Of a stretch of DNA of 57,257 nucleotides, positions 17,177-57,257 are shown piece by piece (positions within the stretch are counted from its first letter, which is position 1; every line of letters begins with the position of its first letter). The DNA is taken from NCBI RefSeq assembly GCF_009767945.1, contig NZ_WSRS01000002.1, positions 1 through 57,257 of the forward strand. The letters run 5' to 3'. The notes beneath the pieces were generated by a model that was not told where the DNA came from, ran no database searches, and was given only the letters and a program-made list of their open reading frames with translations. This DNA comes from Streptococcus danieliae. GTDB taxonomy: Bacteria > Bacillota > Bacilli > Lactobacillales > Streptococcaceae. Made by a program: the position numbers and the translations under genes.

Positions 17177-17186
17177 AAATCGTGTT

Positions 17187-17260
17187 GGTCCCATAGCTCA
17201 GCCGGATAGAGCATTCGCCTTCTAAGCGAACGGTCGCAGGTTCGAATCCTGCTGGGATCA
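17187..17260 (+). tRNA. tRNA-Arg (anticodon TCT)
   Basis: A full cloverleaf can be folded: acceptor GGTCCCA/TGGGATC, D arm with AGCTC...GAGC, anticodon stem TTCGC/GCGAA with loop CTTCTAA (anticodon TCT), and T arm GCAGG TTCGAAT CCTGC. CCA is not encoded. In streptococci this tRNA sits between rlmH and comCDE; here the satellite island follows it. Confidence 0.96.
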
Positions 17261-17289
17261 TGTAGATAGAGTCTATAGTAGAATAGAGG

Positions 17290-17315
17290 ACTGGTCTATA
17301 GCCAGTTCTTTTTTT
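17290..17315 (+). terminator. Terminator after tRNA-Arg
   Basis: The short hairpin ACTGG/CCAGT is followed by TTCTTTTTTT, 30 bp downstream of the tRNA. Confidence 0.65.
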
Positions 17316-17368
17316 GACGGCTCTTATGAAAATATCTGCTTGTTTTTTTAGAAATGGTCTTGTGTAGT

Positions 17369-17398
17369 TTCATTTCAGGCAGTTTGGGGTACATCTTG
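17369..17398 (+). promoter_or_regulatory. Orphaned ComE-box-like direct repeat (remnant of the comC promoter)
   Basis: TCATTTCAG, a 12-bp spacer, then ACATCTTGG resembles the streptococcal ComE site (aCAnTTcaG-N12-aCAgTTgaG) with the exact 12-bp spacing. A -10-like TAAAAT follows at about 17432-17437. This is where the comCDE promoter should be, between tRNA-Arg and comC. However, no comC follows; the integrase end begins about 140 bp later, and comD is 10 kb away. Confidence 0.55.
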
Positions 17399-17538
17399 GG
17401 ATTTGAATCCCTTTAGGAGGCTATTTTAAGATAAAATAGACAAAAAGTTTCAAGGATTACCAAGAAAGCCTGTAATAATGGGATTTATGACCTATCGAAA
17501 AATATTGACTTCTGAATTTATTCCCCAATTTGTTCCCC

Positions 17539-18705
17539 CTAGAGATTTTTCAGAGCTGTTTCAAAGTATGAGACGGCTTTTTTTGCGTTCTCTTTTGAGA
17601 GGTGGCTGTAGATGTCCATAGTCATTGATAGCTGGGAGTGTCCCAGTCGGTGCTGGAGTTCCTTGTAAGGGATCCCCGAGTTAAGCAGTAAGCTGGCGTG
17701 AGTATGTCGGAAGCAATGGAATCCAAGATAAGGAACGCGGGCTTTTTCGCAATGTACTTGAAGGCGATAGCGTAACCTCCGACTATGCGGGTAATCATTG
17801 ATGAAATCAGAAAAGACCACAGTTTCAGTCCTTCCCAGTTTCCAAGCCTCTTGAGTTTGTTCTCGCTTGTAACTCTTTAGCATGGCCACAGTCTCTTGGC
17901 TTATATCTATATCCCTTTTACTTGATTGGGACTTAGGACTGTTTACCTCCTGTTTATGGTTCAACGTCTTAGTGATGTGTACCACCGATTGGGAAAGGTC
18001 AATATCTGACCAGTGGAGTGCCAGCGCTTCATTGATACGGCAACCAGTAGCCAGTAAGAACTTGTAGAGGGTGACCTCGTATCGATGGCGGTAGATGGTT
18101 TGGTCAAGGGTATCTAAATAATCAAGAAATTGTTTTAACTCCTGATTGTCAAAGTATTTTAGCTTTTGGTGATTGGCTTTCTGGGTATTTCTTGGCAGTA
18201 TTACCTCCCTGGCTGGATTGTAGGGGAGTGCTTGCATGGTAACACCATACTGAAGAATCCGCTTATTGAGCGCGTGGATTTTGTCATAGTGAAGATATGC
18301 CCCTTGGTCTCCCCTATTGGTTTGCTCGGCCAGTTTGTTGATGATTGACTGAATCAATGGAGTGGTGAGCTTATCCAGTTTGTACTGACCGAACAAGGGG
18401 ATAATATGACGGTTTAGGAGTGTCTTTATCCCATTTTGAGTATTGGGCTTGACTGTATGCTGGTAGCTGTCCCACCAAAGGTTGGCAAGTTCTTGATAAG
18501 TGGTAATGCTGGTAGATTTGATCCGAGTAGTACCGTTTTTCTGAAAGTCTACAATAGTCTTCCGAGCCTTTGCCTTGACCTCTTTCTTGGTTCTGCCCGT
18601 GATGGTGGTTTTGACTTTCTTTCCTGTCACCTTGTCAGTTCCAAGGTAGATGTTAGCCCTGTAGACGGTTGAGCCGTCCTTTTTTGTAATCTGTTTGATA
18701 TTCAT
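17539..18705 (-). CDS. int: Tyrosine-family site-specific integrase of the island
   Basis: The 388-residue recombinase starts at ATG 18705, chosen for the AGAGG ribosome site just upstream and because the 11 extra codons before it lack one. The N-terminal AP2-like arm-binding part (KKDGSTVYRANIYLGTDKVTGKK) is followed by a SAM-like core-binding domain (about 60-160) and the catalytic domain. The catalytic domain has ATGCRINEAL (Arg), FHCFRHTHAS (HxxR), LGHSQ (His) and nucleophile Tyr in MDIYSHLS. It should excise and integrate the island. Its last 127 bases are about 94% identical to the truncated copy after rpsD at 57018. Confidence 0.94.
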   Translation of the reverse strand: MNIKQITKKDGSTVYRANIYLGTDKVTGKKVKTTITGRTKKEVKAKARKTIVDFQKNGTTRIKSTSITTYQELANLWWDSYQHTVKPNTQNGIKTLLNRHIIPLFGQYKLDKLTTPLIQSIINKLAEQTNRGDQGAYLHYDKIHALNKRILQYGVTMQALPYNPAREVILPRNTQKANHQKLKYFDNQELKQFLDYLDTLDQTIYRHRYEVTLYKFLLATGCRINEALALHWSDIDLSQSVVHITKTLNHKQEVNSPKSQSSKRDIDISQETVAMLKSYKREQTQEAWKLGRTETVVFSDFINDYPHSRRLRYRLQVHCEKARVPYLGFHCFRHTHASLLLNSGIPYKELQHRLGHSQLSMTMDIYSHLSKENAKKAVSYFETALKNL

Positions 18706-18727
18706 GATAAACCTCTTTCTAAATTCA

Positions 18728-18740
18728 TCAGTAGGCAAGC
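18728..18740 (+). repeat. 13-bp repeat, copy 1 (TCAGTAGGCAAGC)
   Basis: Lies just upstream of the integrase start. An almost identical copy (TCAGTAGGCATGC) is at 21515-21527, within a roughly 35-bp similar stretch, and an exact inverted copy is at 27696-27708 near the right edge. Possibly a binding site for integrase, Xis or an island regulator. Confidence 0.6.
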
Positions 18741-18943
18741 GATAAAGTTTTTTAGGTTTGAATCATGAATGGAGCGCACGCGCCCCGGATTAGATTTTGT
18801 CAGAGTGTTTGGAAAGAGTGAGTCCGTAGAATGTGGGGTCACGTTTTGTCACCTCATAGGGTGAGGTAAGGGTTAGGTATCGTGAGTTCTTCTCTTGGTT
18901 CGTTTTGGAACTTCTCGGCGTTCGGCATGTAAACAAAAAAAAG

Positions 18944-19756
18944 CTAGATGACCCTATCACTCCCGATAACTGAAAAGATTTTGATGTGAGTATCTTCAGT
19001 AGGTGGGAAGTCAATCACGATGTCAGAGTATTTAGGGTTGATGGAGACCAGGCGGAGCGCGTGGGGTTCGGTGTAGACACGTTTCAAGTACGTTTTATCA
19101 TTGACCACGACAGCGCAGACTTGGCCTGAATAGTTAGAAATCCCCTTATCTATTAAGTAGACCACGTCCCCATCATGGTAGTTAGGTAGCATACTATCAC
19201 CGTCAACGATTGAAGCGATGTCGTGCCTCGGTGGTTCGTTGGTGACTTGTACGGTGGTTTTGTCGTCGTCATCATAGCTAAAACCAAGGCCAGCAGCTAG
19301 ACTTGATACTGTTTCCACGTCATAAGTGATACCTAGTTCTTCTACAGCCGTTTCTTGTTCTTCTAGGAGACTATGGCCATACTGTACCCACTTTTGGCGA
19401 TTATCGGCTGTTAGTTTTTGGTCAAGCTGGTTTAGGTCGGAAGGAGTGGGGGATGAGGTTGAGGTATTTGAAAAAGTTCCGACTTGGCCACTTAGTTTCA
19501 TCACCTCGTGTGGGATATTGTCTACAAATCTTGGGTCAAGTTGTGATTTTCTGATATTTAAAAAGTCGGCCATCTTTTGTAAGTTTCCCGCAGTCGGTAA
19601 CGATGTTCCTTTTACATAACCGGTTATAGTACTTTTGGGAATCCCAGTAGAGTTGTGGAGGTCTATTTGGCGGACTCCTCTAGCAGACATATATTTATTT
19701 AGATTGTGTGAAAATAATTTCCTGTTTAGTAGGTCTTGAGGGCTAGATTTTGCCAT
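18944..19756 (-). CDS. CI/LexA-like phage repressor (XRE HTH plus S24 peptidase)
   Basis: The 270-residue master repressor has an N-terminal XRE HTH (about 14-70: RQIDLHNSTGIPKSTITGYVKG). The C-terminal S24/LexA-type domain has the nucleophile serine in VDGDSMLPNY and the general-base lysine in KTYLKRVY. The segment SSLAAGLGF (about 152-160) offers an Ala-Gly bond of the type self-cleaved when RecA filaments form, so derepression by SOS is plausible. It is divergently transcribed from the small HTH gene, with palindromic operators in between. It should silence the rightward replication operon. Confidence 0.9.
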   Translation of the reverse strand: MAKSSPQDLLNRKLFSHNLNKYMSARGVRQIDLHNSTGIPKSTITGYVKGTSLPTAGNLQKMADFLNIRKSQLDPRFVDNIPHEVMKLSGQVGTFSNTSTSSPTPSDLNQLDQKLTADNRQKWVQYGHSLLEEQETAVEELGITYDVETVSSLAAGLGFSYDDDDKTTVQVTNEPPRHDIASIVDGDSMLPNYHDGDVVYLIDKGISNYSGQVCAVVVNDKTYLKRVYTEPHALRLVSINPKYSDIVIDFPPTEDTHIKIFSVIGSDRVI

Positions 19757-19812
19757 ATTATTTCCCTGCTTTCATTGTCTCTTATAGAATAATTGTAACA
19801 CTAAAATAGAAA

Positions 19813-19873
19813 AAATACGAGTATTTCAGAATTTTTTTAAAAAAGTTTGACAAAGTACGAAAATAATAGTACT
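19813..19873. promoter_or_regulatory. Divergent control region of the island with operator palindromes
   Basis: The near-palindrome AAATAC-GA-GTATTT (19813-19826) and AGTAC-N10-GTACT (19854-19873) lie between the divergent repressor and HTH genes. The second covers the rightward promoter: -35 TTGACA (19848-19853), 17-bp spacer, -10 TACTAT (19871-19876). Likely repressor operators. Confidence 0.65.
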
Positions 19874-19908
19874 ATCTTTCTATCACTTTTGAAAGGAAAT
19901 TAGAAAAA

Positions 19909-20127
19909 ATGCAACAATGGACACTAAAGGCTTGCCGTATAAATGCTGGATATACGTTGAGACAAGTTGCCGAAAAGGTAGGAAAAAGTTTTCAAACTAT
20001 ATCCAAGTACGAAAAAGATAGTACTGAAATTCCTTTAAGTCTACTAAAAGATTTAGCAAAACTTTATAACATGAAAATAGATGATATTTTTTTGGGAGAT
20101 AGTACGAAAAAATCCGAACAGAGGTAG
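19909..20127 (+). CDS. Small Cro/XRE-type HTH regulator
   Basis: A 72-residue protein that is a single XRE helix-turn-helix (about 4-62: YTLRQVAEKVGKSFQTISKYEKDS...LLKDLAKLYNMKIDDIF). It is the first rightward gene after the operator region, the usual cro position, so it probably antagonises the CI-like repressor. The ribosome site GAAAGG is about 10 bp upstream of the ATG. Confidence 0.88.
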   Translation: MQQWTLKACRINAGYTLRQVAEKVGKSFQTISKYEKDSTEIPLSLLKDLAKLYNMKIDDIFLGDSTKKSEQR

Positions 20128-20195
20128 AGTCTCAGAGAGATTGAACCGACCATCACTATTGATGACTTATTTTTCAGTTAGAAAGGATCAACACC

Positions 20196-20726
20196 ATGAA
20201 CCTAGTCTATTTAGACGGCAAGAAAGAGCCGTACACAACTCACGAAATCGTGGCAGAACATGCTGAAATCGATAGTATTTCAGTTAGAAAGCTGATTGAT
20301 AAACACAGAAAGCGATTGGAAGCCTTTGGGGTTTTGTCATTTGAAATCCATAAACCTGAAAAAGGTTCTTTAGGTGGGAGGCCTAGAAAAATCTATCACC
20401 TAAACGAACAACAAGCGACCTTACTTGTTACCTACCTGGGAAATTCTCTCCCCGTGGTTGAATTTAAGACAAACCTAGTCCGTGCCTTCTTTGAAATGCG
20501 GGACGAGTTGGCCAAGTTTCAATTACAACGACAACTTGAAGCACCGAAACGCAAAGCCTTACATAGTGCCATAGCAAGATGGGAACACGCTCCCAAGCAT
20601 GCCCATTCTACAATGGTCAACCTGCTTTTGAAGGGAACCACAGGCTTGAATAAGAAGCAACTGACTGAAGCGCGTGGGGGAACTACAGCAAACTCATTGA
20701 CGAGTTGCGAACTATCCACGGCTTGA
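20196..20726 (+). CDS. Rha-family phage regulatory protein, C-terminus frameshifted
   Basis: A 176-codon ORF whose first about 110 residues match the Rha pattern (TTHEIVAE...RKLIDKHRKR, GGRPRKIYHLNEQQATLLVTYLG, VVEFKTNLVRAFFEMRDEL). The reading frame departs at a GGGGG run at 20676-20680. Continuing in the next frame gives YSKLIDELRTIHGLNLVAIG and an HTH-like segment that runs on into the following gene. One extra G would restore a longer protein, so the present end (...TSCELSTA) is probably the product of a one-base deletion or a sequencing error. Confidence 0.7.
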   Translation: MNLVYLDGKKEPYTTHEIVAEHAEIDSISVRKLIDKHRKRLEAFGVLSFEIHKPEKGSLGGRPRKIYHLNEQQATLLVTYLGNSLPVVEFKTNLVRAFFEMRDELAKFQLQRQLEAPKRKALHSAIARWEHAPKHAHSTMVNLLLKGTTGLNKKQLTEARGGTTANSLTSCELSTA

Positions 20727-20857
20727 ACCTGGTTGCTATTGGCCAACGTATCGGTACAGATCCGAGGACGGTAGGCAAATGGCAAGCAGGTAAGCATAAA
20801 CCGAATAAAGATAGTCGCAAGAAGATAAATGCCTTATATAGAGAAGTGAGGAAAGAC
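20684..20857 (+). pseudogene. Displaced C-terminal HTH segment of the Rha-like gene
   Basis: The frame used by the downstream antirepressor is open upstream of its ATG and encodes KLIDELRTIHGLNLVAIGQR followed by an HTH-like TDPRTVGKWQAGKHKPNKDS. It has only a TTG start (20705) and no ribosome site. It reads naturally as the continuation of the Rha-like protein across the G-run frameshift. Confidence 0.5.
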
Positions 20858-21439
20858 ATGACAACACAGAATACAGTGAATCCATTTGAAGATTTTTTCG
20901 ATTGGTCAAAAGAAGTTAGTAAGAAACCAGTTGCTGAAGTTATTACAGTTCAACAATTCGGGGAACACTCTTTTGAAATTTATGGAGACAAAGATAATCC
21001 GCTTTTTATTGCCGTTGAAGTCGCTAAAATGATTGAGGTACAAAACACAACGGACTTATTAAAGAGGGTTGATGAAGATGAAAAGCTGACCTATGTAGTA
21101 TCTAGGGCAGGACAAAAACGAGAAGTGAACATGTTGACAGAATTCGGCTTATATGAAGTTCTATTCCAGTCACGCAAACCAAAAGCGAAAGAATTCAAAA
21201 GGGTTGTCAAACAAATCCTGAAAGAAATCCGTCAGCAGGGTTACTACATGCAGGGCGAGCTGGTAGAACCAACAACAGCACCCACAGAAGAAGAAGCAGA
21301 ACGCTACTACATTGACGCACTGACAAAGCTTATTTTGGAGGCCACAGACCTAAGCGAGAAAGAGCGTCTAAATCAACGCCTGGGGCTTTTCTTAAAGAAT
21401 CGTAACTACTACAGCAAGCGAATCGAAACGAGTCACTAA
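20858..21439 (+). CDS. Phage antirepressor with BRO-N domain
   Basis: A 193-residue product from ATG 20858, chosen because GAGG lies 7 bp upstream. Residues about 30-130 form a BRO-N (Bro/Ant) domain: FGEHSFEIYGDKDNPLFIA, DLLKRVDEDEK, MLTEFGLYEVLFQSRKPKAK, VVKQILKEIRQQGYY. The C-terminal part is charged and helical (EEEAERYYIDALTKLILEAT). Such proteins typically inactivate or compete with phage repressors, so it may help switch the island on. Confidence 0.85.
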   Translation: MTTQNTVNPFEDFFDWSKEVSKKPVAEVITVQQFGEHSFEIYGDKDNPLFIAVEVAKMIEVQNTTDLLKRVDEDEKLTYVVSRAGQKREVNMLTEFGLYEVLFQSRKPKAKEFKRVVKQILKEIRQQGYYMQGELVEPTTAPTEEEAERYYIDALTKLILEATDLSEKERLNQRLGLFLKNRNYYSKRIETSH

Positions 21440-21451
21440 GCGCGTGAGAAC

Positions 21452-21491
21452 ACAAAAAAAAAGACCTAACGGATACCAGCCGTTAAGTCTG
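21452..21491 (-). terminator. Hairpin with A-run after the antirepressor
   Basis: GACCTAACGG / CCGTTAAGTC stem-loop preceded by nine A on the plus strand, so it would terminate minus-strand rather than plus-strand transcription. It is followed at 21515 by the repeat TCAGTAGGCATGC. Confidence 0.5.
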
Positions 21492-21514
21492 ACGGAACAA
21501 ACCAAAACCAACCA

Positions 21515-21527
21515 TCAGTAGGCATGC
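21515..21527 (+). repeat. 13-bp repeat, copy 2 (TCAGTAGGCATGC)
   Basis: One mismatch from the copies at 18728 and 27696. Similarity to the 18728 region extends rightwards (GCGATA, then TTTTTA and GTTT) for about 35 bp, ending just before a small gene in both places. Confidence 0.55.
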
Positions 21528-21621
21528 GATAGAGGTTTTTAAGTTTATCATGAATATTTTAATTATATCAGAAATTAGGGCGAGAAGCTATGAACGTAAT
21601 GAATATTATGGGGAGGGAAGC

Positions 21622-21816
21622 ATGAACGAATTATATTTATCAATCCATGACCAACTGTTGACCTTGCTTGTTTTGTTCCTTCTGCTGGGGCTTACGGTAT
21701 TCCACCGAAAGCCAAAGATTGAGACCACAGAGGAAACACGCGCCACAAAGCAAGAAACAGAACTAACCCCAGACTATGGCCGATATATTTGGTTAGCTGG
21801 TCGGTACTACAATTAG
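21622..21816 (+). CDS. Small single-pass membrane protein of the island
   Basis: A 64-residue protein from ATG 21622, preceded by GGGGAGGG; the longer frame upstream lacks a ribosome site. It has one membrane helix (about 11-29, LLTLLVLFLLLGLTVFH) and a charged, Glu/Thr/Lys-rich tail ending YGRYIWLAGRYYN. Not recognised; a cargo or phage-interference role is possible but not shown. Confidence 0.65.
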   Translation: MNELYLSIHDQLLTLLVLFLLLGLTVFHRKPKIETTEETRATKQETELTPDYGRYIWLAGRYYN

Positions 21817-21826
21817 GAGGCAGAAG

Positions 21827-22165
21827 ATGACAGATTTAGAAGTAAGGCTACTTAGGCTTATTCCAGTAGGGAGTCAGAGGCCTATCAATACGAAGGAGCT
21901 TGCTAAACTCCTAGGAATCAATGAGCGGACAGCACGGGATATTATTAGCCGTTTGATTGTTCGCTACCGCGTCCCAATTGTGGCCAACCGTGGGGGCAAT
22001 AGCGGGCATTATATCCCAGTTGATGATGGGGAGCGTTTGGCGGGAATCCGTGAGCTACAAGCCCAGCATAAGGCAGAGGGTGAACGCTTGAATACACTTA
22101 TTATGGCCGACCTAAAGCAACATGAAAAAGTGTTGGCAGAGTTTGAGGAGAAAGAACATGAATAA
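21827..22165 (+). CDS. Winged-helix DNA-binding protein
   Basis: A 112-residue protein starting MTDLEVRLLRLIPVGSQRPI. A winged helix spans about 1-68 (TKELAKLLGINERTARDIISRLIVRY, wing GGNSGHYIPVD), then a long charged helix (about 70-112) probably used for dimerisation. Ribosome site AGGAGG lies 9 bp upstream. It overlaps the next gene by 8 bp. Probably a regulator in the island operon. Confidence 0.75.
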   Translation: MTDLEVRLLRLIPVGSQRPINTKELAKLLGINERTARDIISRLIVRYRVPIVANRGGNSGHYIPVDDGERLAGIRELQAQHKAEGERLNTLIMADLKQHEKVLAEFEEKEHE

Positions 22166-22322
22166 GATTGATTTAGAAGATATTAGGGTAAAACTTCCCA
22201 ACTTGGTGACTATATCCGATAGTACTCTAGCTTGTGATGACCGTAATTTGACCTATGCGACACTATCTACTGTTACCGACGTCTTAGACACGATTGTCAG
22301 AGCGATTGATGAAGTAGTTTAG
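22158..22322 (+). CDS. Small hypothetical protein of the island
   Basis: A 54-residue acidic protein from ATG 22158 (MNKIDLEDIRVKLPNLVTIS). The start overlaps the preceding gene, whose end supplies GAGGAGAAAG as ribosome site. No recognised domain. It sits in a tightly packed rightward operon. Confidence 0.6.
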   Translation: MNKIDLEDIRVKLPNLVTISDSTLACDDRNLTYATLSTVTDVLDTIVRAIDEVV

Positions 22323-22333
22323 GAGGAAAGACC

Positions 22334-22606
22334 ATGAATCTATTAAGCCAAGAGGTTGAAACAGCTTTGAAGTTGGAACTATTGACCATGGTTAAGAAAT
22401 TTCTGGAATCCTATGAGAGAAAAAGGAATCGCAAGACGGGGCTTATTTCTCAAAAAGAATTAATGGAGGAGCTTGAGATCAGTTATCAAACTTTGACAAG
22501 GTGGGAAAAAGCTGGCTTGAAACGCTACCAACCACCGCTTGAGGATACCCGAACAGTATTCTACAGAGAGTCCGATATATTGATGTTTTTAGGAGCTGAA
22601 AGATGA
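22334..22606 (+). CDS. MerR/AlpA-like HTH protein (possible excisionase)
   Basis: A 90-residue protein with a basic helical N-terminus and a MerR-type helix-turn-helix (about 37-85: LISQKELMEELEISYQTLTRWEKAGLK...VFYRESDILMFLG). AlpA/Xis-like proteins of this form control excision in PICIs. It overlaps the primase start by 4 bp (ATGA), so it is translationally coupled to the replication genes. Confidence 0.75.
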   Translation: MNLLSQEVETALKLELLTMVKKFLESYERKRNRKTGLISQKELMEELEISYQTLTRWEKAGLKRYQPPLEDTRTVFYRESDILMFLGAER

Positions 22607-23481
22607 TTTATACAAGTATTGGAGTACAAAACAGACGACTGACCCCAGTAGCTCCTGATATGAGTTCATGGGACTACTTGGTCGCCTTAGAGCCTGTACC
22701 TGTCCCACCTACAGCAGGATTGGGGCAATGGAAGAAGAGCCAAGCCCCGTACTGTATCGCTGGAACAGTTGAAGCTGAACCAGACGGGAGTTACAAACGG
22801 AGTAATAAAACACTCGTGGCGCGTGATTTGATTTTTCTTGATTATGACGAACTAGAGAATCAAGATGATTTTTTCGAAGCAGTCAAAGAAGTTTTGAGCG
22901 ACTACACTTTCTTGATCTATCCAACCATCTCATATAGCTTAGAAAAGCCAAAGTACAGGTTAGTAGTCAAGCCAAGCGAGGAAATGGATGAAGTTAGTTA
23001 TAAAGCTACTGTTAGGGAGATAGGGGACAGAATCGGCCTACCTTACGACGGGGCTTCTCTAACGTGGTCGCAGCTACAAGGTTTACCCGTGAAGACACAA
23101 GCAATGGCTGGGGCTATCCGTTTTCAGAATCTGGGGCAGGACTACCCCGTGCAGAAAGTTGAAAAGACTGACTCGGTTGGCGGTTCTTCTCCTAGAAGTT
23201 CGGGAGGTATTTCAACGGCTTACAGCGGGGACTCACTTACAATGCGGGTTGTTAAAACTCTCCTGAATGGTCTAGGAGACGAGGGAGGGCGAAATGTTGC
23301 GCTGACTCGATTTGTGGGACTTCTATACTCGAAGTATGTTCGGTGCGATGTGGCCACAGCGTATGAGTTGGCAAAAATTGCCAATAGTGTGACGACTGAC
23401 CCGTTACCGATTGAAGAAGTTGACAGGACTTTTAAAAGTATCACAGAACGAGAAATCGAAAAAAGGAGACTAGGGCTATAG
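22603..23481 (+). CDS. Primase with archaeo-eukaryotic-like fold and PriCT segment
   Basis: A 292-residue replication protein. The motif DLIFLDYDELENQ (about 75-87) resembles the metal-binding acidic pair of AEP primases, followed by a second conserved block (YPTISYSLEKPKYRLVVKPSE). The C-terminal about 80 residues (RVVKTLLNGLGDEGGRNVALTRFVGLL...VDRTFKSITERE) match the PriCT primase C-terminal helical domain. It directly precedes the helicase gene, forming the island's replication module. Confidence 0.8.
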   Translation: MIYTSIGVQNRRLTPVAPDMSSWDYLVALEPVPVPPTAGLGQWKKSQAPYCIAGTVEAEPDGSYKRSNKTLVARDLIFLDYDELENQDDFFEAVKEVLSDYTFLIYPTISYSLEKPKYRLVVKPSEEMDEVSYKATVREIGDRIGLPYDGASLTWSQLQGLPVKTQAMAGAIRFQNLGQDYPVQKVEKTDSVGGSSPRSSGGISTAYSGDSLTMRVVKTLLNGLGDEGGRNVALTRFVGLLYSKYVRCDVATAYELAKIANSVTTDPLPIEEVDRTFKSITEREIEKRRLGL

Positions 23482-25002
23482 ATGAATATTGAAGAATTAA
23501 CCCAAAGCATGAATCAGGCGGAAGCTGAATATGATTTTAATGAGATTGAGAGCATGGCGGATTTGTACCGCAGAATCAAGCAAGCTGGGGAGCTTTGGAG
23601 AATAGAACATACCGAAATAAAGATTATTTCAAAAGGACCGAGAAAGGGGGAAACTGAAACAAAAATCCCGATACCCTCCCCTGTTGATGTTGCAGAGAAT
23701 TTGAACAAGCTATGCCATTTTACTTTCATTGGTCGGGGTGGGATTTCTGATAGCAGCCCCGTGTATACATTCGATTGGGATAGTGGGGTATACACTCATA
23801 GTCGGGATTTATTGTGGCGATTGTGTCGGGCTTTTGATGGTCGTTTGAAGTCGGCACACTACAAAGAAGTTGAAATGCAACTAAGAACCATGATAAAGAT
23901 GAAGCGACCTCTAGAAGATAGAAATCTTATCCCGGTCAATAATGGAATCTTTAATCTCAAAGACAAGACTTTCAGACCACACGCGCCCCAGTTCATTATC
24001 ACCAGCAAGATTAAGACTAGTTATAACCCAGGGGCTGAAAAGCCGATCCTCGGGGGCTGGTTTGATTTTGATGAATGGCTGGACGGTATCGCAGTAGGTG
24101 ATGAAGATGTAGTGACTCTCCTTTGGCAGATCATGAATGAAGCTATCAATCCCAACTATACAAGGGGGAAAATTGTTCTCCTTCTAGGAGATGGGAACAA
24201 CGGAAAAGGGACTTATCAAGATTTACCAAAGAATTTGATAGGCCAAGAGAATGTAGCTGCCTTGCGGCCTGACCAGTTTGAAGGGCATAAGCCTGAAATG
24301 TTGCTCGGTAAAGTTTGTAATATCGGTGATGATATTAGTAACAAGTATCTTGATGAAGTTTCTGACTTGATGAGTATAGCGACAGGGGACACCGTGATGA
24401 TCAATCCCAAGCATGAAAAACCTGTAGAACTAACCACGAAGCCTTTGTGTCTTTTCTCGGCCAATGCGTTGCCTAACAGTCGAAACAAGTCCCAAGGTTG
24501 GTATAGGCGTTTATGTATCGTTCCTTTTAACGCTGATTTTAACGGACAGAAGGAGCGCCCAGAAATCAAGCAAGTATTTTTAAAAGACAGGGAGCTTTTA
24601 GAGTGGGTTCTGTTTAAGATTTTGAACATGGAGAACTTTAAGAAATTCATTGAGCCAGAAGTGACCAAGACGACGCTTGAGGAATACAAGTCAGATAATG
24701 ACTATATCCTTGGTTTCGTGAAAAACAGGTACGTTCCTAACGGTTGGGATGGACTAACTCATGTACCTACAGCATTTTTAAAAAGAGAGCTGTCAGAGTA
24801 TGCCCATGACGAGGGAATCAGCAACCCACAGCTTTACGGAGCGGGTAAGCGAGTTGTAGCTGTTTTGAATAAAGAGACAGAGGGAAGGTATGAAATAAAG
24901 TCGGGGCGGGTAGTTTTTGGTGATGAAAAAATCTTAGATCCGTTTGGTTTTTTTCAAAAAGACCTAGCAGGGTCACGGAGGGGAATCAGTAAAATCAGAT
25001 AA
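23482..25002 (+). CDS. SF3-type replicative helicase (phage/plasmid P4-D5 family)
   Basis: A 506-residue protein with a D5-like N-terminal region and a superfamily-3 helicase core. Walker A is GDGNNGKGTYQDL (about 232-244), Walker B region VCNIGDDIS, then the sensor stretch PLCLFSANALPNSRN and the arginine-finger candidate GWYRRLCIVPF. The C-terminus (about 430-506) is a winged-helix-like origin-binding segment. It follows the primase with no gap. Together with the adjacent repeats it suggests autonomous theta-type replication after excision. Confidence 0.88.
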   Translation: MNIEELTQSMNQAEAEYDFNEIESMADLYRRIKQAGELWRIEHTEIKIISKGPRKGETETKIPIPSPVDVAENLNKLCHFTFIGRGGISDSSPVYTFDWDSGVYTHSRDLLWRLCRAFDGRLKSAHYKEVEMQLRTMIKMKRPLEDRNLIPVNNGIFNLKDKTFRPHAPQFIITSKIKTSYNPGAEKPILGGWFDFDEWLDGIAVGDEDVVTLLWQIMNEAINPNYTRGKIVLLLGDGNNGKGTYQDLPKNLIGQENVAALRPDQFEGHKPEMLLGKVCNIGDDISNKYLDEVSDLMSIATGDTVMINPKHEKPVELTTKPLCLFSANALPNSRNKSQGWYRRLCIVPFNADFNGQKERPEIKQVFLKDRELLEWVLFKILNMENFKKFIEPEVTKTTLEEYKSDNDYILGFVKNRYVPNGWDGLTHVPTAFLKRELSEYAHDEGISNPQLYGAGKRVVAVLNKETEGRYEIKSGRVVFGDEKILDPFGFFQKDLAGSRRGISKIR

Positions 25003-25349
25003 AAGGTTTGTGCCCTTGTTTGAAATAGCCAAAACCCTTGATAATACTAGCTGTTTAGGTGGTTTGTGCCTTTGTTGTGACTTTCTTTTTTAAGAATGGC
25101 ACAACGAAAACCATTGGTGTTGCTGGGTTTGTTGCTATTATGTGACCTTGTGACGTTCTTTTTCTATTATGGATAAAATAAAATAAATAATAATTATTAT
25201 CTATTTAAAATATATATAATGTCCGAGAAAAACGGCACTGGCACACAACGTGGCTAAACCCTTACAGCCCCAAGGGTTTGAGCGTGTTCCCTTTCTAGGG
25301 CACAAAAGGTCACAAAATCTATTTTTTAACATAAATTAGGAGGAGACAC
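25003..25349. other. Candidate island replication origin: iterons plus AT-rich tract
   Basis: The gene-free 347 bp right after the helicase holds TTTGTGCC at 25007-25014 and 25063-25070, inverted GGCACAA at 25098-25104 and GGCACAAA at 25299-25306, and variants GGCACAC (25240) and TGTGACC (25141). Between them is a strongly AT-rich run (about 25178-25220). Iterons flanking an AT-rich region next to a primase-helicase pair is the arrangement of satellite origins. It has not been functionally shown. Confidence 0.6.
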
Positions 25350-25574
25350 ATGAAAGAAATTGTAAATATTGAAGAAATGATGGTATTCATCATGAAATTA
25401 TTGGTCAGCGGTGCCGTGGTTATGTTGGAAGATGGTGGAATTTCCCATGTACCTAGACCCAAAAATGACGCTTTGGTTATTGAGTTTGAAGATGGAGAAC
25501 CGACCGGGTGCATGAGAGCGGAAAAGGTTGAGGAATTTTATGAGGTTAAGAAAGGGGTGTTGAGATGTTTATAA
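25350..25574 (+). CDS. Small hypothetical protein
   Basis: A 74-residue product with a good ribosome site (AGGAGG). It opens MKEIVNIEEMMVFIMKLL, and the middle looks like small beta strands (AVVMLEDGGISHVPRPKND). No recognised domain. It overlaps the next gene by 10 bp, indicating a coupled pair. Confidence 0.65.
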   Translation: MKEIVNIEEMMVFIMKLLVSGAVVMLEDGGISHVPRPKNDALVIEFEDGEPTGCMRAEKVEEFYEVKKGVLRCL

Positions 25575-25747
25575 AAACCGAAAAAGGACTGGTCAATATT
25601 GATCAGATTAAAATGATGAGATTTCCTTATGATGAGGATGAACACCAAGGAATGCTTTTGGTATTAAAAAATGACCGAGTCGTGATGACGGAAATACTTT
25701 ACCCCGATTTAGTGGAAAAAATGGAGAAATTAGGGGTATTGATTTAA
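25565..25747 (+). CDS. Small hypothetical protein
   Basis: A 60-residue acidic product (MFIKTEKGLVNIDQIKMMRF...GVLI), overlapping the preceding gene. It has predicted beta-rich character and no recognised motif. It belongs to the late part of the island operon. Confidence 0.6.
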   Translation: MFIKTEKGLVNIDQIKMMRFPYDEDEHQGMLLVLKNDRVVMTEILYPDLVEKMEKLGVLI

Positions 25748-25762
25748 GAAGGAGGAAGAAAA

Positions 25763-25899
25763 ATGCAAATCGGAAACAATAACATGGTGGGAATAGATAG
25801 TTACAACGATCAATGCTTACGCCTAACGTGTTGAAGCTGATGAAAGTCTTGGATCATGACGGAATTTATACGGAGTTCCTGGAGAATGTTGAAGTCTAA
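25763..25899 (+). pseudogene. Frameshifted small ORF
   Basis: An ATG at 25763 with a strong site GGAGGAAG opens MQIGNNNMVGIDSYNDQ but stops at 25834 after 23 residues. In the next frame MLTPNVLKLMKVLDHDGIYT continues to a stop at 25899. One extra A near 25812 would join them into a roughly 45-residue protein. Either a one-base deletion or a sequencing error. Confidence 0.4.
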
Positions 25900-25913
25900 A
25901 CAATAAAAAACGA

Positions 25914-25943
25914 GGGTAGCCCAAAAGTGGGTTGCCTTTTTGC
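25914..25943 (+). terminator. Terminator in the island operon
   Basis: Hairpin GGGTAGCCC / GGGTTGCC followed by TTTTT, downstream of the small genes and before the zinc-ribbon gene. Confidence 0.6.
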
Positions 25944-25975
25944 CTACATAGTTGGGCATTTGGAGGTATATAGTG

Positions 25976-26464
25976 ATGATGAAGCTAACCATAGAACAAT
26001 TTGTCGGTATAATGGACAGCCCACGCGCAAAAGGTATGTCAGAGGGTGAGCCTTTTGAAATTGATTTAGAAGCTGAATCATTGTACTTGGGTAGTCAGTA
26101 CATACCGCTGGAGTCACGACCAGCCAACTATGGCGGTAAGCAATGGTATTTTGTTTGTCCTGATTGTGATACAAAGAGACGGGTACTGTATGGCGAGATT
26201 GGACTCATGGCTTGCGGTGAGTGCCAAGGGATCTATAAGCAGACACGGAACAGAACCAAAACAGATTGTGGGTATTGGTGGGATATGGCACTAAAGGAAA
26301 TCCGAAAGCTAGATCCAAATTTTAAACCGCCAAAAGGTTACGTAGATTATGATGACTTTCCAAAGCGCCCAAAGTGGATGAGATGGCCTGATTATCTGAA
26401 GCGCTGGAGGAAGTTCCATAAGTACATGGATAAAGCCCACACCTTATGGCTTAAAGGGTGGTAG
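25976..26464 (+). CDS. Zinc-ribbon phage-type protein of unknown function
   Basis: About 162 residues from ATG 25976; a GTG at 25973 better fits the GGAGG at 25962 and cannot be excluded. The middle carries a four-cysteine zinc ribbon (FVCPDCDTKRRVLYGEIGLM then CGEC). The C-terminal third is rich in Trp, Lys and Pro (PKRPKWMRWPDYLKRWRKFH), suggesting nucleic-acid contact. Phage and satellite genomes often carry such a protein before the DUF1492 gene. Confidence 0.7.
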   Translation: MMKLTIEQFVGIMDSPRAKGMSEGEPFEIDLEAESLYLGSQYIPLESRPANYGGKQWYFVCPDCDTKRRVLYGEIGLMACGECQGIYKQTRNRTKTDCGYWWDMALKEIRKLDPNFKPPKGYVDYDDFPKRPKWMRWPDYLKRWRKFHKYMDKAHTLWLKGW

Positions 26465-26473
26465 AATATTGCA

Positions 26474-26884
26474 ATGACAGATATTAAGAAACGATTGAAC
26501 AGACTGAAGAAAATACCTGAACGCTTGCAAGAAATCAAAAGGGAAATCGAATACTTGGAGAGTAACCCGATAGCTTCCCAGCAGTTTGAGAATCAGCCAC
26601 GGAACAATAGCAACAGGAATACCACCGAGGATAGAACTATCAATACCATTGACAGGTTGTCCGAGTTGAAAGTGGAGTTTAAAGCTTGTCTTGACGAGCA
26701 GAAAGAGATGGCCCAGGGCATTGAATCCTTGTCTGACCCGTTAGACAATATGGTTATCAGGTTGTTCTACATCGATGGCAATAGCTGGGACGAGGTAGCT
26801 AGGAGTTTACGGGTCAGCAAAGCCACTATACAACGGGCTAGGACAAGAGCCATGGAGGAGTTGGAGGAGTTGCTGGGTGGGTGA
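26474..26884 (+). CDS. DUF1492/ArpU-like late transcription regulator
   Basis: A 136-residue protein with an N-terminal coiled coil (about 1-35, LKKIPERLQEIKREIEYLES) and a C-terminal sigma-70-region-4-like HTH (VIRLFYIDGNSWDEVARSLRVSKATIQRARTRAMEEL). Proteins of this family end the early region of streptococcal prophages and control late gene expression. Here there is no late gene cluster after it, consistent with a satellite. Confidence 0.82.
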   Translation: MTDIKKRLNRLKKIPERLQEIKREIEYLESNPIASQQFENQPRNNSNRNTTEDRTINTIDRLSELKVEFKACLDEQKEMAQGIESLSDPLDNMVIRLFYIDGNSWDEVARSLRVSKATIQRARTRAMEELEELLGG

Positions 26885-27261
26885 TATTACTAGAAAATAC
26901 GAGAATAAAATCTGATATAGATGAACAGGAAACCAATACAAACTAGTAACGTCCATTTTTGGACACAACTTAAAACATTTCAACATGCTCAAATTTGAGT
27001 GGGTTCAGAGAAGGAATATGATCAAGTAAGAAGCGAAGCCTTGCATGAGTTCACTTATGGTTATCTAGGCGGTTGCTTGATGGAGTTGGTAGCTGGTACA
27101 TAATCGATTTTTTGGGAACGGTCACAGTAGGAAACAGTAGGGGAGCTGACCCTGTAAAACACAGACTTAGGTTAGACTAGTCCCCCATGTCGAAAAAATC
27201 GGGATTTAATTTTAATTCCGCCACCGGTGGTGGGGTCGATTACGGAGATATTTGCATTTCT

Positions 27262-27288
27262 CGCGTACGACCCCCCTCCCCCCTGTCG
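27262..27288 (+). other. C-rich candidate packaging (cos-like) site
   Basis: CGCGTACGA is followed by two runs of six C split by one T, then GTCG. It lies after the DUF1492 gene, where cos-type streptococcal phages have the cos/HNH/terS region. If real it would allow packaging by a helper without a satellite terminase. The assignment rests on position and composition only. Confidence 0.3.
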
Positions 27289-27695
27289 TTTTCTTGTCAT
27301 TGCTGACTTCTGACTGATTTGGGGATTCCTTTTTGGTGCATTTTAGGCTGTTTTTTAAAAGAATACCGCTCAGAATAGCAAAAATTTCAACGAGACCGCC
27401 CCTATTTTGAACCCTAGTAATGTCGGTGGTGATTTATACCTTGAATCCTTAAAAGCTCCCAGGGGGAAAATACGGGGCTATTGTGGTTATCAACTATTAG
27501 TTGACTGTTTCCATTTTTGGCAGAGCACGCGCAGATTGAAAGCAGGTAATCCAGTAGCTCCCTTATAGGCTGAAAAATGTCAAGTTTTATCAAGTTGTAT
27601 ATTTTAGTAGCTATGTGGGTATTTGCTCGCTGGCAACGGTGTAGGCCTATCCCTTAGCAGACCAACAAAAAAGCGAAGTCGTTTTGACCTCGCCA

Positions 27696-27708
27696 GCTTG
27701 CCTACTGA
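27696..27708 (-). repeat. 13-bp repeat, copy 3 (exact inverted copy)
   Basis: GCTTGCCTACTGA is the exact complement of the 18728-18740 copy and lies about 20 bp from the TTTGTTCCCC motif at the right edge. Confidence 0.6.
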
Positions 27709-27871
27709 ACTCGTAAAAAATTTGTTCCCCTTTTTGTTCTCCTTTGGTGGTAGTCTATGGGGGTGTATGGAATATCTAAACCCCTAAAAGTGTTGATTTG
27801 GTGGTTTTTGTTGGCTGTATGGCGGAATAATAATAATTAGTATTTGCTTTAAGATATAGTATACAGTTGCT

Positions 27872-29191
27872 ATGGAAGTTCATTTGTTTTTAGGACAGGA
27901 GAGTCCGTTTCTTCTGCTTTTATTGCTGATCCGTTCTGGGAGCCTGGGCTGGCTCTTTTTTAGTCTACTGAGAAATCGTTTAAAAATGCCTTTCTTTAGT
28001 GGTTTCTGCTTGTATGAGCTACTGTTGATAGGGTTTGGAATCTCTTATCCTCCGATCTTTCATCTATTTCTTCTGGTAGAACCTTTTTTCCTGTCTTGGA
28101 TTCTGTATCGAAATACCTATGAGAGTTTTTCGTTCTCGGCTTATTCGGTTGGGATCCTCTATCTAGGTTTTGATCTATTACGTGCCTTTTTTCTTTTTGG
28201 CCTGTATGCGATTGTAGATCACCGGGTGTTTGTGGATTTTCATGTGCTCCTATATGGTGTAGTTGCAGGTTTGTCTGTCTATACTTTGGGTCTCTGTTTT
28301 CACTATGTTCATCGCTATTTATTATTGTTGGATAAGCCTCGTTTTCAACAGCAGGTGCGGAGCTCCTTTTTGTGCTTTATGTTGATCCATTTGCTGTTAA
28401 CCCTGTCGCAAATGTGCAGCTGTTCCTTGTTATCTCTTGGTTGCTTTAACTTCTTGCGAACGGCCTCGCTTTATGGATTTGCTTTTGTTATCTTACGTTT
28501 GCGTTTGTCTATTCTTGCTTTTGAAAAAGAAGAAAGGGAGGCACGGCTTCCTATGGCTAAGTTGTGTAAAAAGTTAGGTTGCCTCTATCAGGACTTAAGG
28601 GGATTCCGACATGACTTTGCGGGCATGATGGTCAGCTTTACGATGGCGATTGAAAGTCGGGATTGGGAATTGATTGAAAAATTACATCGAGAAGTACTGT
28701 TGGAGGCCAATAAGAGCTTGTCCTCTCACGAATATTCTTATTTTGATTTGTGCCTGTTGGAGGATAAGACCATCCGGAGTTTAATCTTTCACTATCTGGG
28801 GCAGGCTCAGGAAAAAGGATTGGAATTTTCTCTGGAAATTCGCGAAGAGGTCCCAGCCCTGAATGTAAACCAGCTGGCCTTGGTTCGCTTGCTGACCATT
28901 TTACTGACCAATGCAGTTGAAGCAGCTCAAGCATCTGCAGAGAAGGAGATTGCGCTAGCGATTTTTTCAACGGAACACGGGGTAGAGTTGATTTTGGAAA
29001 ATAGCCGACCAGCTGGTGACTTGGATATTCAAAAAATCTACCAATCTGATTGGTCGACCAAGGGGCCTAGTCGAGGAACCGGTCTCTTTACGGTAAAGCG
29101 GATTCTCAATCATGAGGAATCTATGTTATTGGCTACGGACTTTGAGGACCATCGCTTTACCCAACACCTAACGATAAGGAGTCACACATGA
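27872..29191 (+). CDS. comD: Competence-type sensor histidine kinase ComD
   Basis: A 439-residue HPK10-type kinase. The N-terminal half is polytopic (six or seven membrane helices, residues about 5-215). The dimerisation/phosphoacceptor motif DLRGFRHDFAGMMVS is at about 250 (His in GFRHD), and a diverged ATPase domain has LLTNAVEAAQ (N box) and STKGPSRGTGLFTVKRIL (G box). It overlaps comE by 4 bp. The sequence is divergent from pneumococcal ComD. There is no Shine-Dalgarno before the ATG, and the usual comC is missing upstream, where the satellite island lies. Confidence 0.87.
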   Translation: MEVHLFLGQESPFLLLLLLIRSGSLGWLFFSLLRNRLKMPFFSGFCLYELLLIGFGISYPPIFHLFLLVEPFFLSWILYRNTYESFSFSAYSVGILYLGFDLLRAFFLFGLYAIVDHRVFVDFHVLLYGVVAGLSVYTLGLCFHYVHRYLLLLDKPRFQQQVRSSFLCFMLIHLLLTLSQMCSCSLLSLGCFNFLRTASLYGFAFVILRLRLSILAFEKEEREARLPMAKLCKKLGCLYQDLRGFRHDFAGMMVSFTMAIESRDWELIEKLHREVLLEANKSLSSHEYSYFDLCLLEDKTIRSLIFHYLGQAQEKGLEFSLEIREEVPALNVNQLALVRLLTILLTNAVEAAQASAEKEIALAIFSTEHGVELILENSRPAGDLDIQKIYQSDWSTKGPSRGTGLFTVKRILNHEESMLLATDFEDHRFTQHLTIRSHT

Positions 29192-29949
29192 AAGTACTGA
29201 TTTTAGAAGACCAGCTTCACCATCAAATTCGTTTGGAAGGAGCTTTGCAGGAATTAGGGGAAGAATTGCAGCAGAAGCTAGAAATTCGAACCACGGGGAA
29301 ACTAGAGGAATTTATGGCTTACCACGCGCAGGCGGAAGTTCATCAACTCTATTTTCTGGACATTGAGATTCAGAATCGGGAGCGAACGGGATTGGAACTG
29401 GCACGTGAAATTAGGAAAGACAACCCCTTTGCGATCATTGTGTTTACCAGTTCCCATTCTGAATTTGCTCTTTTAACCTTCCGTTATCAGGTGGCTGCTC
29501 TGGATTTTATTCCCAAGGATTTGGCAGATGATCTATTTCGTATCAGGTTACGAGACGTGTTAGAATATAGCCGTTCGCATTTTGTAGATGTGGATACCCA
29601 GGCAGATTATTTTGATTTTTGTACCAAAGGCGAACGCCTACAAATCCCTTTTCAGGATATTTTCTACATTGAAACGGCACCCAACTCCCACAAACTACGA
29701 ATGGTCGGAAAAAATTTTATCAAGGAATTTCCAGGAACCCTACAAGAATTAAGTGATTTAAAGGACTCCAAAGGACGAGACCGGTTTTTCCGCCCTCACA
29801 AGTCCTATCTAGCCAATATTCAAAATATCCGAGGCTGGGATCGACGAAATAGGATGGTGTTATTTCTGGAACAGGTGAGCTGTCCCTTGTCCCGTTTACG
29901 GTTTGCAGCCATGAAAGAGTTATTAGCTGAAAAAAATGAAATTTTTTGA
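29188..29949 (+). CDS. comE: LytTR response regulator ComE
   Basis: A 253-residue regulator with a receiver domain (1-125; acidic ED at 7-8, phospho-acceptor Asp58 in YFLDIEIQ, Lys109-type in FIPKDLAD) and a C-terminal LytTR DNA-binding domain (about 140-250; FYIETAPNSHKLRM, RPHKSYLANIQNI, LSRLRF). In related species, phosphorylated ComE activates comCDE and comX by binding paired repeats with 12-bp spacing. It is directly coupled to comD. The tRNA-Glu that follows is the usual right neighbour of comCDE. Confidence 0.92.
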   Translation: MKVLILEDQLHHQIRLEGALQELGEELQQKLEIRTTGKLEEFMAYHAQAEVHQLYFLDIEIQNRERTGLELAREIRKDNPFAIIVFTSSHSEFALLTFRYQVAALDFIPKDLADDLFRIRLRDVLEYSRSHFVDVDTQADYFDFCTKGERLQIPFQDIFYIETAPNSHKLRMVGKNFIKEFPGTLQELSDLKDSKGRDRFFRPHKSYLANIQNIRGWDRRNRMVLFLEQVSCPLSRLRFAAMKELLAEKNEIF

Positions 29950-29987: not shown

Positions 29988-30010
29988 TATTCTTGTCCTT
30001 GAGATGAGAT

Positions 30011-30082
30011 GGTCCGTTGGTCAAGGGGTTAAGACACCGCCTTTTCACGGCGGTAACACGGGTTCGAATCCCGTACGGACTA
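30011..30082 (+). tRNA. tRNA-Glu (anticodon TTC)
   Basis: A 72-nt cloverleaf: acceptor GGTCCGT/ACGGACT, anticodon stem CCGCC/GGCGG with loop TTTTCAC (anticodon TTC), T arm ACGGG TTCGAAT CCCGT. CCA not encoded. Confidence 0.96.
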
Positions 30083-30087
30083 TAGTT

Positions 30088-49653: not shown

Positions 49654-49704
49654 ATTGACAAGTTACTAAGATATGCTACAATACTAAGAAGCAAATACAC
49701 TGAT

Positions 49705-56311: not shown

Positions 56312-56923
56312 ATGTCACGTTATACAGGACCATCATGGAAAAAATCTCGTCGTCTTGGCTTGTCTCTATCAGGAACTGGTAAAGAACTTGCACGTCGTAA
56401 CTACGTACCAGGACAACACGGACCAAACAACCGCAGCAAACTTTCAGAATATGGTTTGCAATTGGCTGAAAAACAAAAACTTCGTTTCATGTACGGAGTA
56501 GGTGAAAAACAATTCCGTAACTTGTTCGTACAAGCTACAAAAATCAAAGGTGGAATCCTTGGTTTCAACTTCATGCTTCTTCTTGAACGTCGTTTGGACA
56601 ACGTGGTTTACCGCCTAGGTTTGGCTTCAACACGTCGCCAAGCTCGTCAATTTGTTAACCACGGTCATATCCTTGTTGACGGTAAACGTGTTGACATCCC
56701 TAGCTACCGTGTTGAAGTTGGTCAAGTAATCTCTGTTCGTGAGAAATCAGCTAAAGTTCCAGCAATTTTGGAAGCTGTTGAGTCAACTCTTGGACGCCCA
56801 GCATTTGTATCTTTCGATGCAGAAAAATTGGAAGGTTCATTGACTCGTCTCCCAGAACGTGATGAAATCAACCCAGAAATCAACGAAGCACTTGTCGTTG
56901 AATTCTACAACAAAATGCTTTAA
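56312..56923 (+). CDS. rpsD: 30S ribosomal protein S4
   Basis: A 203-residue primary 16S-rRNA-binding protein. It starts [20 protein letters not shown] and has the S4 domain ([39 protein letters not shown]), ending VVEFYNKML. It is the Zn-independent form without the N-terminal CxxC cluster. Coding sequence shows highly-expressed-gene codon choice. Monocistronic with leader and terminator. Confidence 0.98.
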
Positions 56924-56942
56924 GATCAGACTTTATATTGCA

Positions 56943-56968
56943 GAAAGCCTACAACAGTGGGCTTTTTG
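56943..56968 (+). terminator. rpsD terminator
   Basis: AAAGCCTAC...GTGGGCTTTTT hairpin with T-run. Confidence 0.85.
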
Positions 56969-56975
56969 CTTTGTC

Positions 56976-57145
56976 TTAAAACGTTGATTTCTGGGTTTGT
57001 TCCCCTTTTTGTTCCCCTTAGAGATTTTTCAGAGCCGTTTCAAAGTATGAGACGGCTTTTTCTGTATTCTCTTTTGAGAGGTGGCTGTAGATGTCCATAG
57101 TCATTGATAGCTGGGAGTGTCCCAGCCGGTGTTGGAGTTCCTTGT
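56976..57145 (-). pseudogene. 3' remnant of a second tyrosine integrase next to rpsD
   Basis: 57018-57145 encodes the last about 42 residues of an integrase (KELQHRLGHSQLSMTMDIYS...ETALKNL), nearly identical to the island integrase at 17539 (about 94% at DNA level). It includes the catalytic LGHSQ and the tyrosine. The rest is cut off at 57145/57146 by an IS-like tip. The 3' flank (AAAACGTTGATTTCTGG and TTTGTTCCCC, 56976-57008) parallels the left edge of the island, so this is an att-like end of a related element integrated after rpsD. Confidence 0.85.
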
Positions 57146-57257
57146 GGGCACCTCTAAAGTAAGCGCCCAATAACAAGGTATCTTCCGATAAAGTAGAAAT
57201 CTAGCTATACTAGTCTCAGAAAACATGAGTAGAGGAGATTGGTTTAGTGGATGCGAA
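57146..57257. mobile_element. Insertion-sequence end truncating the integrase; right copy of the 99-bp repeat
   Basis: The tip GGGCACCTCTAAA starts exactly where the integrase sequence is broken. Bases 57159-57257 are the inverted copy of 1-99. The frame from ATG 57225 (MSRGDWFSGCE) is open to the window edge but too short to assign to a transposase. The tip is shared with the MITE-like element at 32914. Confidence 0.65.

Follow-up and report, generated by a model that had tools for sequence, protein, structure and literature searches.

A phage-satellite-like island of 10,432 bp, measured from core to core, lies in the competence (com) locus of the stretch of Streptococcus DNA analysed here, between the conserved ComE-dependent promoter of that locus and the genes comD and comE. 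The stretch, called the window below, has 57,257 nucleotides and makes up all of contig G000:C167 in the draft assembly of a Streptococcus genome, the window genome (G000). From the alignments I consider it probable that this element is a satellite of the Javan type, resembling the phage-inducible chromosomal islands (PICIs), that its ancestry is of the rpsD type, and that it integrated at a 9-bp attachment (att) core over the -10 box of the com promoter, which would uncouple comDE from ComE.

The attachment site in the com promoter

A scan of the contigs of named genomes that carry comD gave two relatives, Streptococcus danieliae with 90% and Streptococcus sp. 121 with 74% protein identity. 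The com locus of sp. 121 (L032) is empty: tRNA-Arg is followed by the ComE repeat, TTTAAGATATACT and then comD, which starts 11 nt past the -10 box. The left flank of the window aligns to this empty locus up to its base 9985 and the right flank from its base 9977, an overlap of exactly 9 bp at the empty site that constitutes the att core, TTTAAGATA. Alignment with an island-free relative had been proposed as a check in a preliminary description of this DNA, and it defines both the empty site and the core; a direct-repeat search without a reference did not have the 9-bp core among the repeats listed. In the empty locus the core is found in the equivalent position, overlapping the -10 box of the com promoter.

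17186..17261, plus strand: tRNA-Arg(TCT), the conserved upstream neighbour of com (ARAGORN, Rfam)
17370..17399, plus strand: ComE-type direct repeat of the com promoter, TCATTTCAG-N12-ACATCTTGG (matrix; homologous site in the empty locus of sp. 121)
17425..17433, plus strand: attL core TTTAAGATA, the host/island junction (flank overlap with the empty site)
17432..17437, plus strand: rebuilt -10 box TAAAAT, 32 nt past the second ComE repeat
27848..27856, plus strand: attR core TTTAAGATA (flank overlap with the empty site)
27855..27860, plus strand: host -10 box TATAGT, which remains at attR with no ComE boxes; comD starts 11 nt after it
27872..29191, plus strand: comD histidine kinase, intact (open reading frame)
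29188..29949, plus strand: comE response regulator, intact (open reading frame)

The claim of the preliminary description that an island separates the com promoter from comDE is borne out, the core lying inside the promoter and overlapping its -10 box rather than wholly outside the com operon. The att site is thus within the competence control region, as it is for insertions of mobile elements that inhibit competence.

A comD search in 197 genomes of the genus gave a match in 178, and 97 comD loci were examined, in 96 of which tRNA-Arg lies 166-1971 bp upstream of comD; the lone exception (L135) adjoins a peptidase-ABC transporter. The corresponding gap in the window is 10,610 bp. A clear ComE repeat is present in 85 of the 96 com loci with tRNA-Arg, and the best -10 hexamer is located 31 nt past its second half in 83 of these 85 loci and 32 nt past it in the other two, which is the place that the att core spans. 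Scored against a matrix for which 23 distinct com-promoter sites from other genomes were used, the repeat at 17370-17399 reaches 14.5 and ranks third among 114,454 positions on both strands (a fraction of 2.6e-5); the score is obtained with the repeat in the 32-nt register before the -10 box, as in the empty relative, and falls to -11.7 at 31 nt.

The -10 box at attL is a composite, its TA being derived from the core and its AAAT from the island. I also considered a new ComE box supplied by the island at attR, and rejected it: the 32-nt register scores -3.4, a value that 1.2% of positions equal or exceed, and the 31-nt register -12.3. As the repeat and a rebuilt -10 box are at attL and no ComE box is at attR, the ComE promoter now faces the island and comDE have lost it. 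In the integrated state, comDE would be without ComE-driven autoinduction and would rely on the bare -10 box of attR or on read-through from the island. A promoter consensus scan of 26300-28100 gave 3 sites, as compared to 3.1 expected from shuffles, the nearest plus-strand promoter-like site upstream of comD ending at 27104, far from the gene, and a simple consensus scan of the same region gave no plus-strand terminator between 26884 and comD. No ribosome-binding site is visible at comD, 11 nt past the -10 box (window 27855-27872; 9977-10001 in the empty locus), and for these reasons the comD mRNA may be leaderless. I infer from this arrangement that the expression of comDE would change on integration; the effect on competence, likewise read from sequence, may be nil. 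Excision would restore the com promoter exactly, and the block would then be reversible.

The island and its genes

That the element is a satellite-type island, as the preliminary description had it, agrees with its genes for integration, regulation and replication and with the absence of structural and packaging families among its PHROGs matches. An island is indeed present where that description placed one; the limits it gave, 17260-27872, have to be replaced by the att cores, 17425-17433 and 27848-27856, as the true ends.

17517..17538, minus strand: left pair of GGRGAAYAAA direct repeats, 12 bp apart
17539..18738, minus strand: tyrosine integrase (int), 399 aa (Pfam/PHROGs)
18944..19756, minus strand: CI-like repressor with an S24 peptidase domain (Pfam/PHROGs)
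19909..20127, plus strand: Cro-like helix-turn-helix regulator (Pfam/PHROGs)
20196..20726, plus strand: Rha-type regulator (Pfam/PHROGs)
20705..21439, plus strand: BRO-N/Ant anti-repressor (Pfam/PHROGs)
21827..22165, plus strand: PHROG 2113 protein, function unknown (PHROGs)
22334..22606, plus strand: excisionase-like (xis-like) helix-turn-helix/MerR protein, with a PHROG of unknown function as best match (PHROGs)
22603..23481, plus strand: PriCT primase (Pfam/PHROGs)
23482..25002, plus strand: P4-type (D5_N/DUF5906) primase-helicase (Pfam/PHROGs)
25952..26464, plus strand: 170-aa protein without a family (Pfam/PHROGs scan), which holds the patch 26125-26230 discussed below
26474..26884, plus strand: regulator that I take to be ArpU/sigma-like, the DUF1492 protein of the preliminary description (PHROGs)
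27721..27742, minus strand: right pair of GGRGAAYAAA direct repeats, 12 bp apart

Among the PHROGs matches of 15 island open reading frames, shorter frames lying outside the scan, there is no structural, packaging/terminase or lysis family, and the Pfam/PHROGs matches of the island frames likewise include no terS and no family that interferes with helper packaging, for which reason I call the island PICI-like only and not a strict PICI. It does share with the Javan-type satellites a terminal tyrosine integrase, a size within 7-20 kb, divergent CI and Cro genes with a replication module, an attL and attR that form a direct repeat with a matching empty site, and kinship to named members: its integrase is 73.7% identical to that of Javan360 and its P4-type helicase 57.1% identical to that of Javan653. 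The GGRGAAYAAA pairs at both island ends are probable arm sites of the integrase. Among eight proteins scanned for defence cargo, just a weak RmrA-like match was obtained, to the anti-repressor. Compared with other viral contigs, the helicase found 0 relatives and the integrase 76 loci, none above 72% identity.

The same island in Streptococcus danieliae

S. danieliae carries a nearly identical island at the same base, with 31 differences over 10,432 positions. Twenty of these fall in the patch 26125-26230 inside the gene of the 170-aa protein, which by its sequence is a mosaic exchange. The host DNA on either side is far less similar, with identities per 500 bp of 91-99% in the left flank and 84-91% in the right flank as far as 30000 (the bins beyond, with 66% and 52%, were excluded, because the S. 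danieliae contig ends there), and the first mismatches appear 38 bp to the left and 56 bp to the right of the cores. The synonymous divergence (dS) between the two genomes is 0 for int and for the helicase, 0.10-0.24 for four host genes on the left side and 0.47-0.52 for comD and comE. As the islands are nearly identical while the flanks are more diverged, the most economical account is that the island arrived site-specifically at least twice, in separate events, and the com site has probably been used more than once. Inheritance of the island from a common ancestor would not fit these values, and its transfer by long flanking homology seems unlikely.

Relatives of the integrase and a probable origin at rpsD

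The integrase was searched for in 284 genomes of the genus (E <= 1e-60), of which 136 matched, and the best 30 loci were inspected. Twelve of them are located upstream of corA, 10 at the 3' end of rpsD and 3 upstream of a gene that begins with the motif ETIDTRFG, while 3 are unassigned; the remaining 2, at com, are those of the window and of S. danieliae. For corA and rpsD I use the names that the protein motifs and sequences presumably indicate. Among eight further satellites, the rpsD-end repeat recurs as att repeat in L253 (72 bp) and L260 (20 bp) and in pieces in L254, L255 and L256, and none was recognised in L258, where the contig is cut, or in L259. The eighth, the corA-type satellite L257, has a 17-bp att repeat (at 7998 and 18820), GATTTTGTAGTATAATA, which spans the -10 box before corA, so that com is not the only site at which this integrase group lands on a -10 box.

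The idea of an element specialised for competence, put forward in the preliminary description, is weakened by these relatives, as 28 of the best 30 integrase loci lie elsewhere, the predicted attP of the island is rpsD-like and one corA-type satellite also lands on a -10 box.

The common target of the group is present in the window as well, near its right end.

56312..56923, plus strand: rpsD, common target of the integrase group (name presumed from the protein sequence)
56906..56981, plus strand: 76-bp repeat at rpsD, att site of a second satellite (recurs at G000:C186:4630-4705)
57018..57176, minus strand: open reading frame that contains the 3' end of another integrase gene, fused to sequence present at the left end of the window too

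Here the sequence after rpsD is the left end of a second satellite, which belongs to the same integrase group and whose int is cut near the contig end. On another contig of the window genome, G000:C186 (L128, L252), there is a related satellite whose int is truncated; it is probably the rest of this one, split over two contigs. The rpsD gene of S. danieliae also has such a satellite arm behind it, and foreign sequence comes next. The same 99 bases are found in opposite orientation at both ends of the window (1-99 and 57159-57257) and are probably the end of an insertion sequence.

The predicted attP of the com satellite has 13 bp (TGCTTTAAGATAA) in common with the S. danieliae rpsD end; at the rpsD ends of the window and of sp. 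121 the match is 11 bp and 8 bp, respectively, and at com it is 9 bp. In addition, the left arms of the com satellite and the rpsD satellite align with a score of 67.5, against a shuffle mean of 19.2 and with 0 of 2000 mononucleotide shuffles as good, and both satellites have paired GGRGAAYAAA repeats 12 bp apart. I infer from these likenesses that the com satellite would be descended from rpsD satellites and would have shifted to a site where the core matches, a direction and a cause that the comparison suggests. Its ancestors would have used the 3' end of rpsD, and TTTAAGATA, which matches the core, would have allowed the move to com, possibly because rpsD was already occupied.

A terminator-like hairpin antisense to int

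17552..17584, plus strand: terminator-like hairpin plus T7, antisense to the 3' end of int, facing host transcription

This hairpin begins about 115 nt past the -10 box of attL, and a comparable one, antisense to int, is found in all of the best 30 integrase loci (L038-L067). In the integrase subfamily with the ETA motif, a subfamily picked after the pattern had been seen and whose relatedness inflates the pairing statistics, two third-codon positions (of Ala and Thr codons, both synonymous) pair in 25 of 25 distinct sequences (A-T 14, T-G 6, C-G 3, T-A 2), as compared to a mean of 12.4 by shuffling, 25 never being reached in 100,000; when collapsed to 14 distinct stems, 14 of 14 pair, with a shuffle mean of 6.7 and 11 of 100,000 as good. 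The pair holds in just 10 of 19 in the other int subfamilies. Taken as a whole, the attL transcript shows nothing unusual in its RNA fold (z -0.68), the hairpin alone being notable.

According to the explanation preferred here, the ComE boxes and the rebuilt -10 box at attL would fire toward the island, and the RNA would end about 140 nt on, at this terminator, so that the hairpin would stop ComE-driven transcription short of running through int. Its conservation suggests that an int-antisense terminator is a general shield of these satellites from the host promoters of their landing sites.

State of the competence circuit and alternative explanations

A number of observations weigh against the notion that the integration interrupts a functional control of comDE. 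The com circuit looks damaged independently of the island, as comC is absent and comA is broken or frameshifted in both hosts: in the window genome its first ~30 codons are replaced by unrelated sequence, which is the first 193 bases of contig C163 (L248), and in the draft of S. danieliae it has a frameshift (L247). comX was found neither in the window genome nor in sp. 121, and the conservation of comDE, with ratios of nonsynonymous to synonymous substitutions (dN/dS) between S. danieliae and the window genome of 0.11 for comD and 0.05 for comE, mostly predates the island. With the circuit damaged apart from the island, integration may cost nothing. Moreover, the core has just 9 bp and another copy at 38818, the scan gave no clear ComE repeat in 11 of the 96 com loci, and the comparison has one genome per species.

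The missing comC deserves a separate remark, because the preliminary description had attributed its removal to the integration. This is not supported: the empty locus of sp. 121, with 186 bp from tRNA-Arg to comD, is likewise without comC, which rules out a deletion by the island and indicates that the loss of comC predates it. A relocated comC near comA was looked for with a simple pattern, and no convincing GG-leader peptide was found in L246-L248. Five more Streptococcus com loci (L018, L020, L075, L096 and L116) are without comC by inspection and have kept the ComE promoter, with a gap of 166-169 bp between tRNA-Arg and comD.

It is therefore possible, if somewhat doubtful in my estimate, that the island is a neutral bystander, the com circuit having been already defunct in this clade and its promoter being a tolerated AT-rich site whose occupation has no effect on competence. 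The absence of comC even from the empty-site relative and the damaged comA suit this explanation, as do the negative searches for comX in the window genome and in sp. 121, the gene having been detected in 12 of 12 other genomes of the genus that were sampled; and the window genome has no second perfect ComE site. On the other hand, comD and comE have intact reading frames and show purifying selection when the two species are compared (the dN/dS ratios given above), comEC is present in the window genome, and S. danieliae has comX (G197:C11:422-886), at the start of the equivalent contig. The best ComE score upstream of that comX is only 2.6. The absence of comX from the window genome is not proven, since its region falls at a contig end, in foreign sequence; I do not conclude that the gene was lost, as the contig ends at the equivalent place and comX would lie beyond its left end. 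The ComE pattern occurs at 9 places in the window genome, the com site alone being without mismatch, as compared to 0 places for the reversed control pattern. The eight other repeats, with 2 mismatches each, are on the contigs C55, C163, C170, C179, C181, C188, C190 and C229, and they are possible further targets of ComE. The explanation nevertheless stays strong, because comA is damaged, neither the window genome nor sp. 121 yielded comX, and the conservation of comDE is mostly older than the island.

More far-reaching proposals would give the island a function in competence. That the com promoter is a regular att site of this satellite and, through the two bases common to the -10 box and the att core, works as a reversible switch of comDE, with only a short ComE-driven RNA up to the int-antisense terminator in the integrated state and the circuit restored after excision, shielding the satellite from removal by transformation, appears unlikely. 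I regard it as quite unlikely that the com promoter was selected because a block of comDE protects the satellite from removal by transformation. Such a selection would agree with the nearly identical islands at the same base in two species and with a CI repressor that has an S24 peptidase domain, as do repressors responding to RecA. There is also a precedent, as prophages at comYC and ccnC inhibit transformation according to the available text of PMC12637031 and PMC9764711. However, an rpsD-like attP and an occupied rpsD explain the move without selection, a corA-type relative is on a -10 box as well, and the pheromone circuit is damaged.

Alternatively, the island may have captured comDE, in that read-through from the island would turn on kinase and regulator when the satellite is induced. 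From the last island gene to comD there is no plus-strand terminator-like site, and the early genes of the island are oriented toward comD. I hold this to be very unlikely, as the last island gene and comD are separated by about 1 kb without genes, the terminator scan was one of simple consensus, and excision on induction would sever the link. An assembly artefact or a degenerate remnant instead of an integrated element might be suspected, because the window genome and S. danieliae are both drafts in many contigs; this is hardly credible in view of the identical junctions in two separate genomes, the base-exact match to the empty-site relative and the open int, CI and replication frames.

An integrated satellite of rpsD-type ancestry that uncouples comDE from ComE is the explanation I retain, and the similarity of its core to rpsD, together with an occupied rpsD, offers a testable alternative to selection for the blocking of competence.

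Other features of the window

The window further has a tRNA-Glu at 30010-30083 (ARAGORN) and, at 49692-49756 on the plus strand, a match in Rfam to the Streptococcus small RNA Spd-sr37.

Comparison with known systems

The order int - regulator - small open reading frames - primase is shared with Javan653, a member of the Javan collection of satellites (PMC6813308), while the genes behind the integrase of Javan360 differ from those of the island. The position in the com promoter sets the island apart from its Javan-type relatives, whose 28 loci among the best 30 for the integrase are elsewhere. Satellite prophages use several fixed sites in pneumococcus (PMC6813308, available text). The att repeats described in the sources available have 16-26 bp, as compared to the 9-bp core found here. 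The StCI satellites of S. thermophilus are similar in that they have 7-20 kb, an integrase with regulation and replication genes, no structural genes and several sites; their direct repeats have 16-18 bp, and the available part of that source does not mention a com site (PMC13376191).

In the portion of the PubMed Central (PMC) literature that was searched, the supplementary list of Javan insertion sites being outside its scope, no published element in the comCDE promoter was found. In as far as these sources go, a Javan-type satellite at the com promoter appears to be a new site, whereas prophages at competence loci are already known. Pneumococcal prophages are described at ccnC (attBOXC), comYC, the yjbK promoter, ssbB and scr/dut, and those at competence sites inhibit transformation (available text of PMC12637031 and PMC9764711). 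Like these prophages, the island uses the control region of competence genes as attB, and the attBscr repeat, which preserves both neighbours, is comparable to the rebuilt -10 box at attL (PMC12637031, PMC9764711, in part). The pneumococcal cases, as far as described there, are prophages or a 6.2-kb prophage remnant, at other loci and in S. pneumoniae, whereas the present case is a satellite.

Elements in competence genes are thought to guard against their own deletion by transformation, and the streptococcal cases described, in the sources available, are pneumococcal prophages. The present study adds a satellite that is inserted, exact to the base, in the master com promoter, together with a plausible route to this site. 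In Listeria, a full prophage is located inside the coding gene of the competence regulator ComK, and its regulated excision has been demonstrated. The two cases are alike in that a competence regulator is interrupted and that excision could restore it, with the difference that the element described here is a satellite and is inserted in a promoter.

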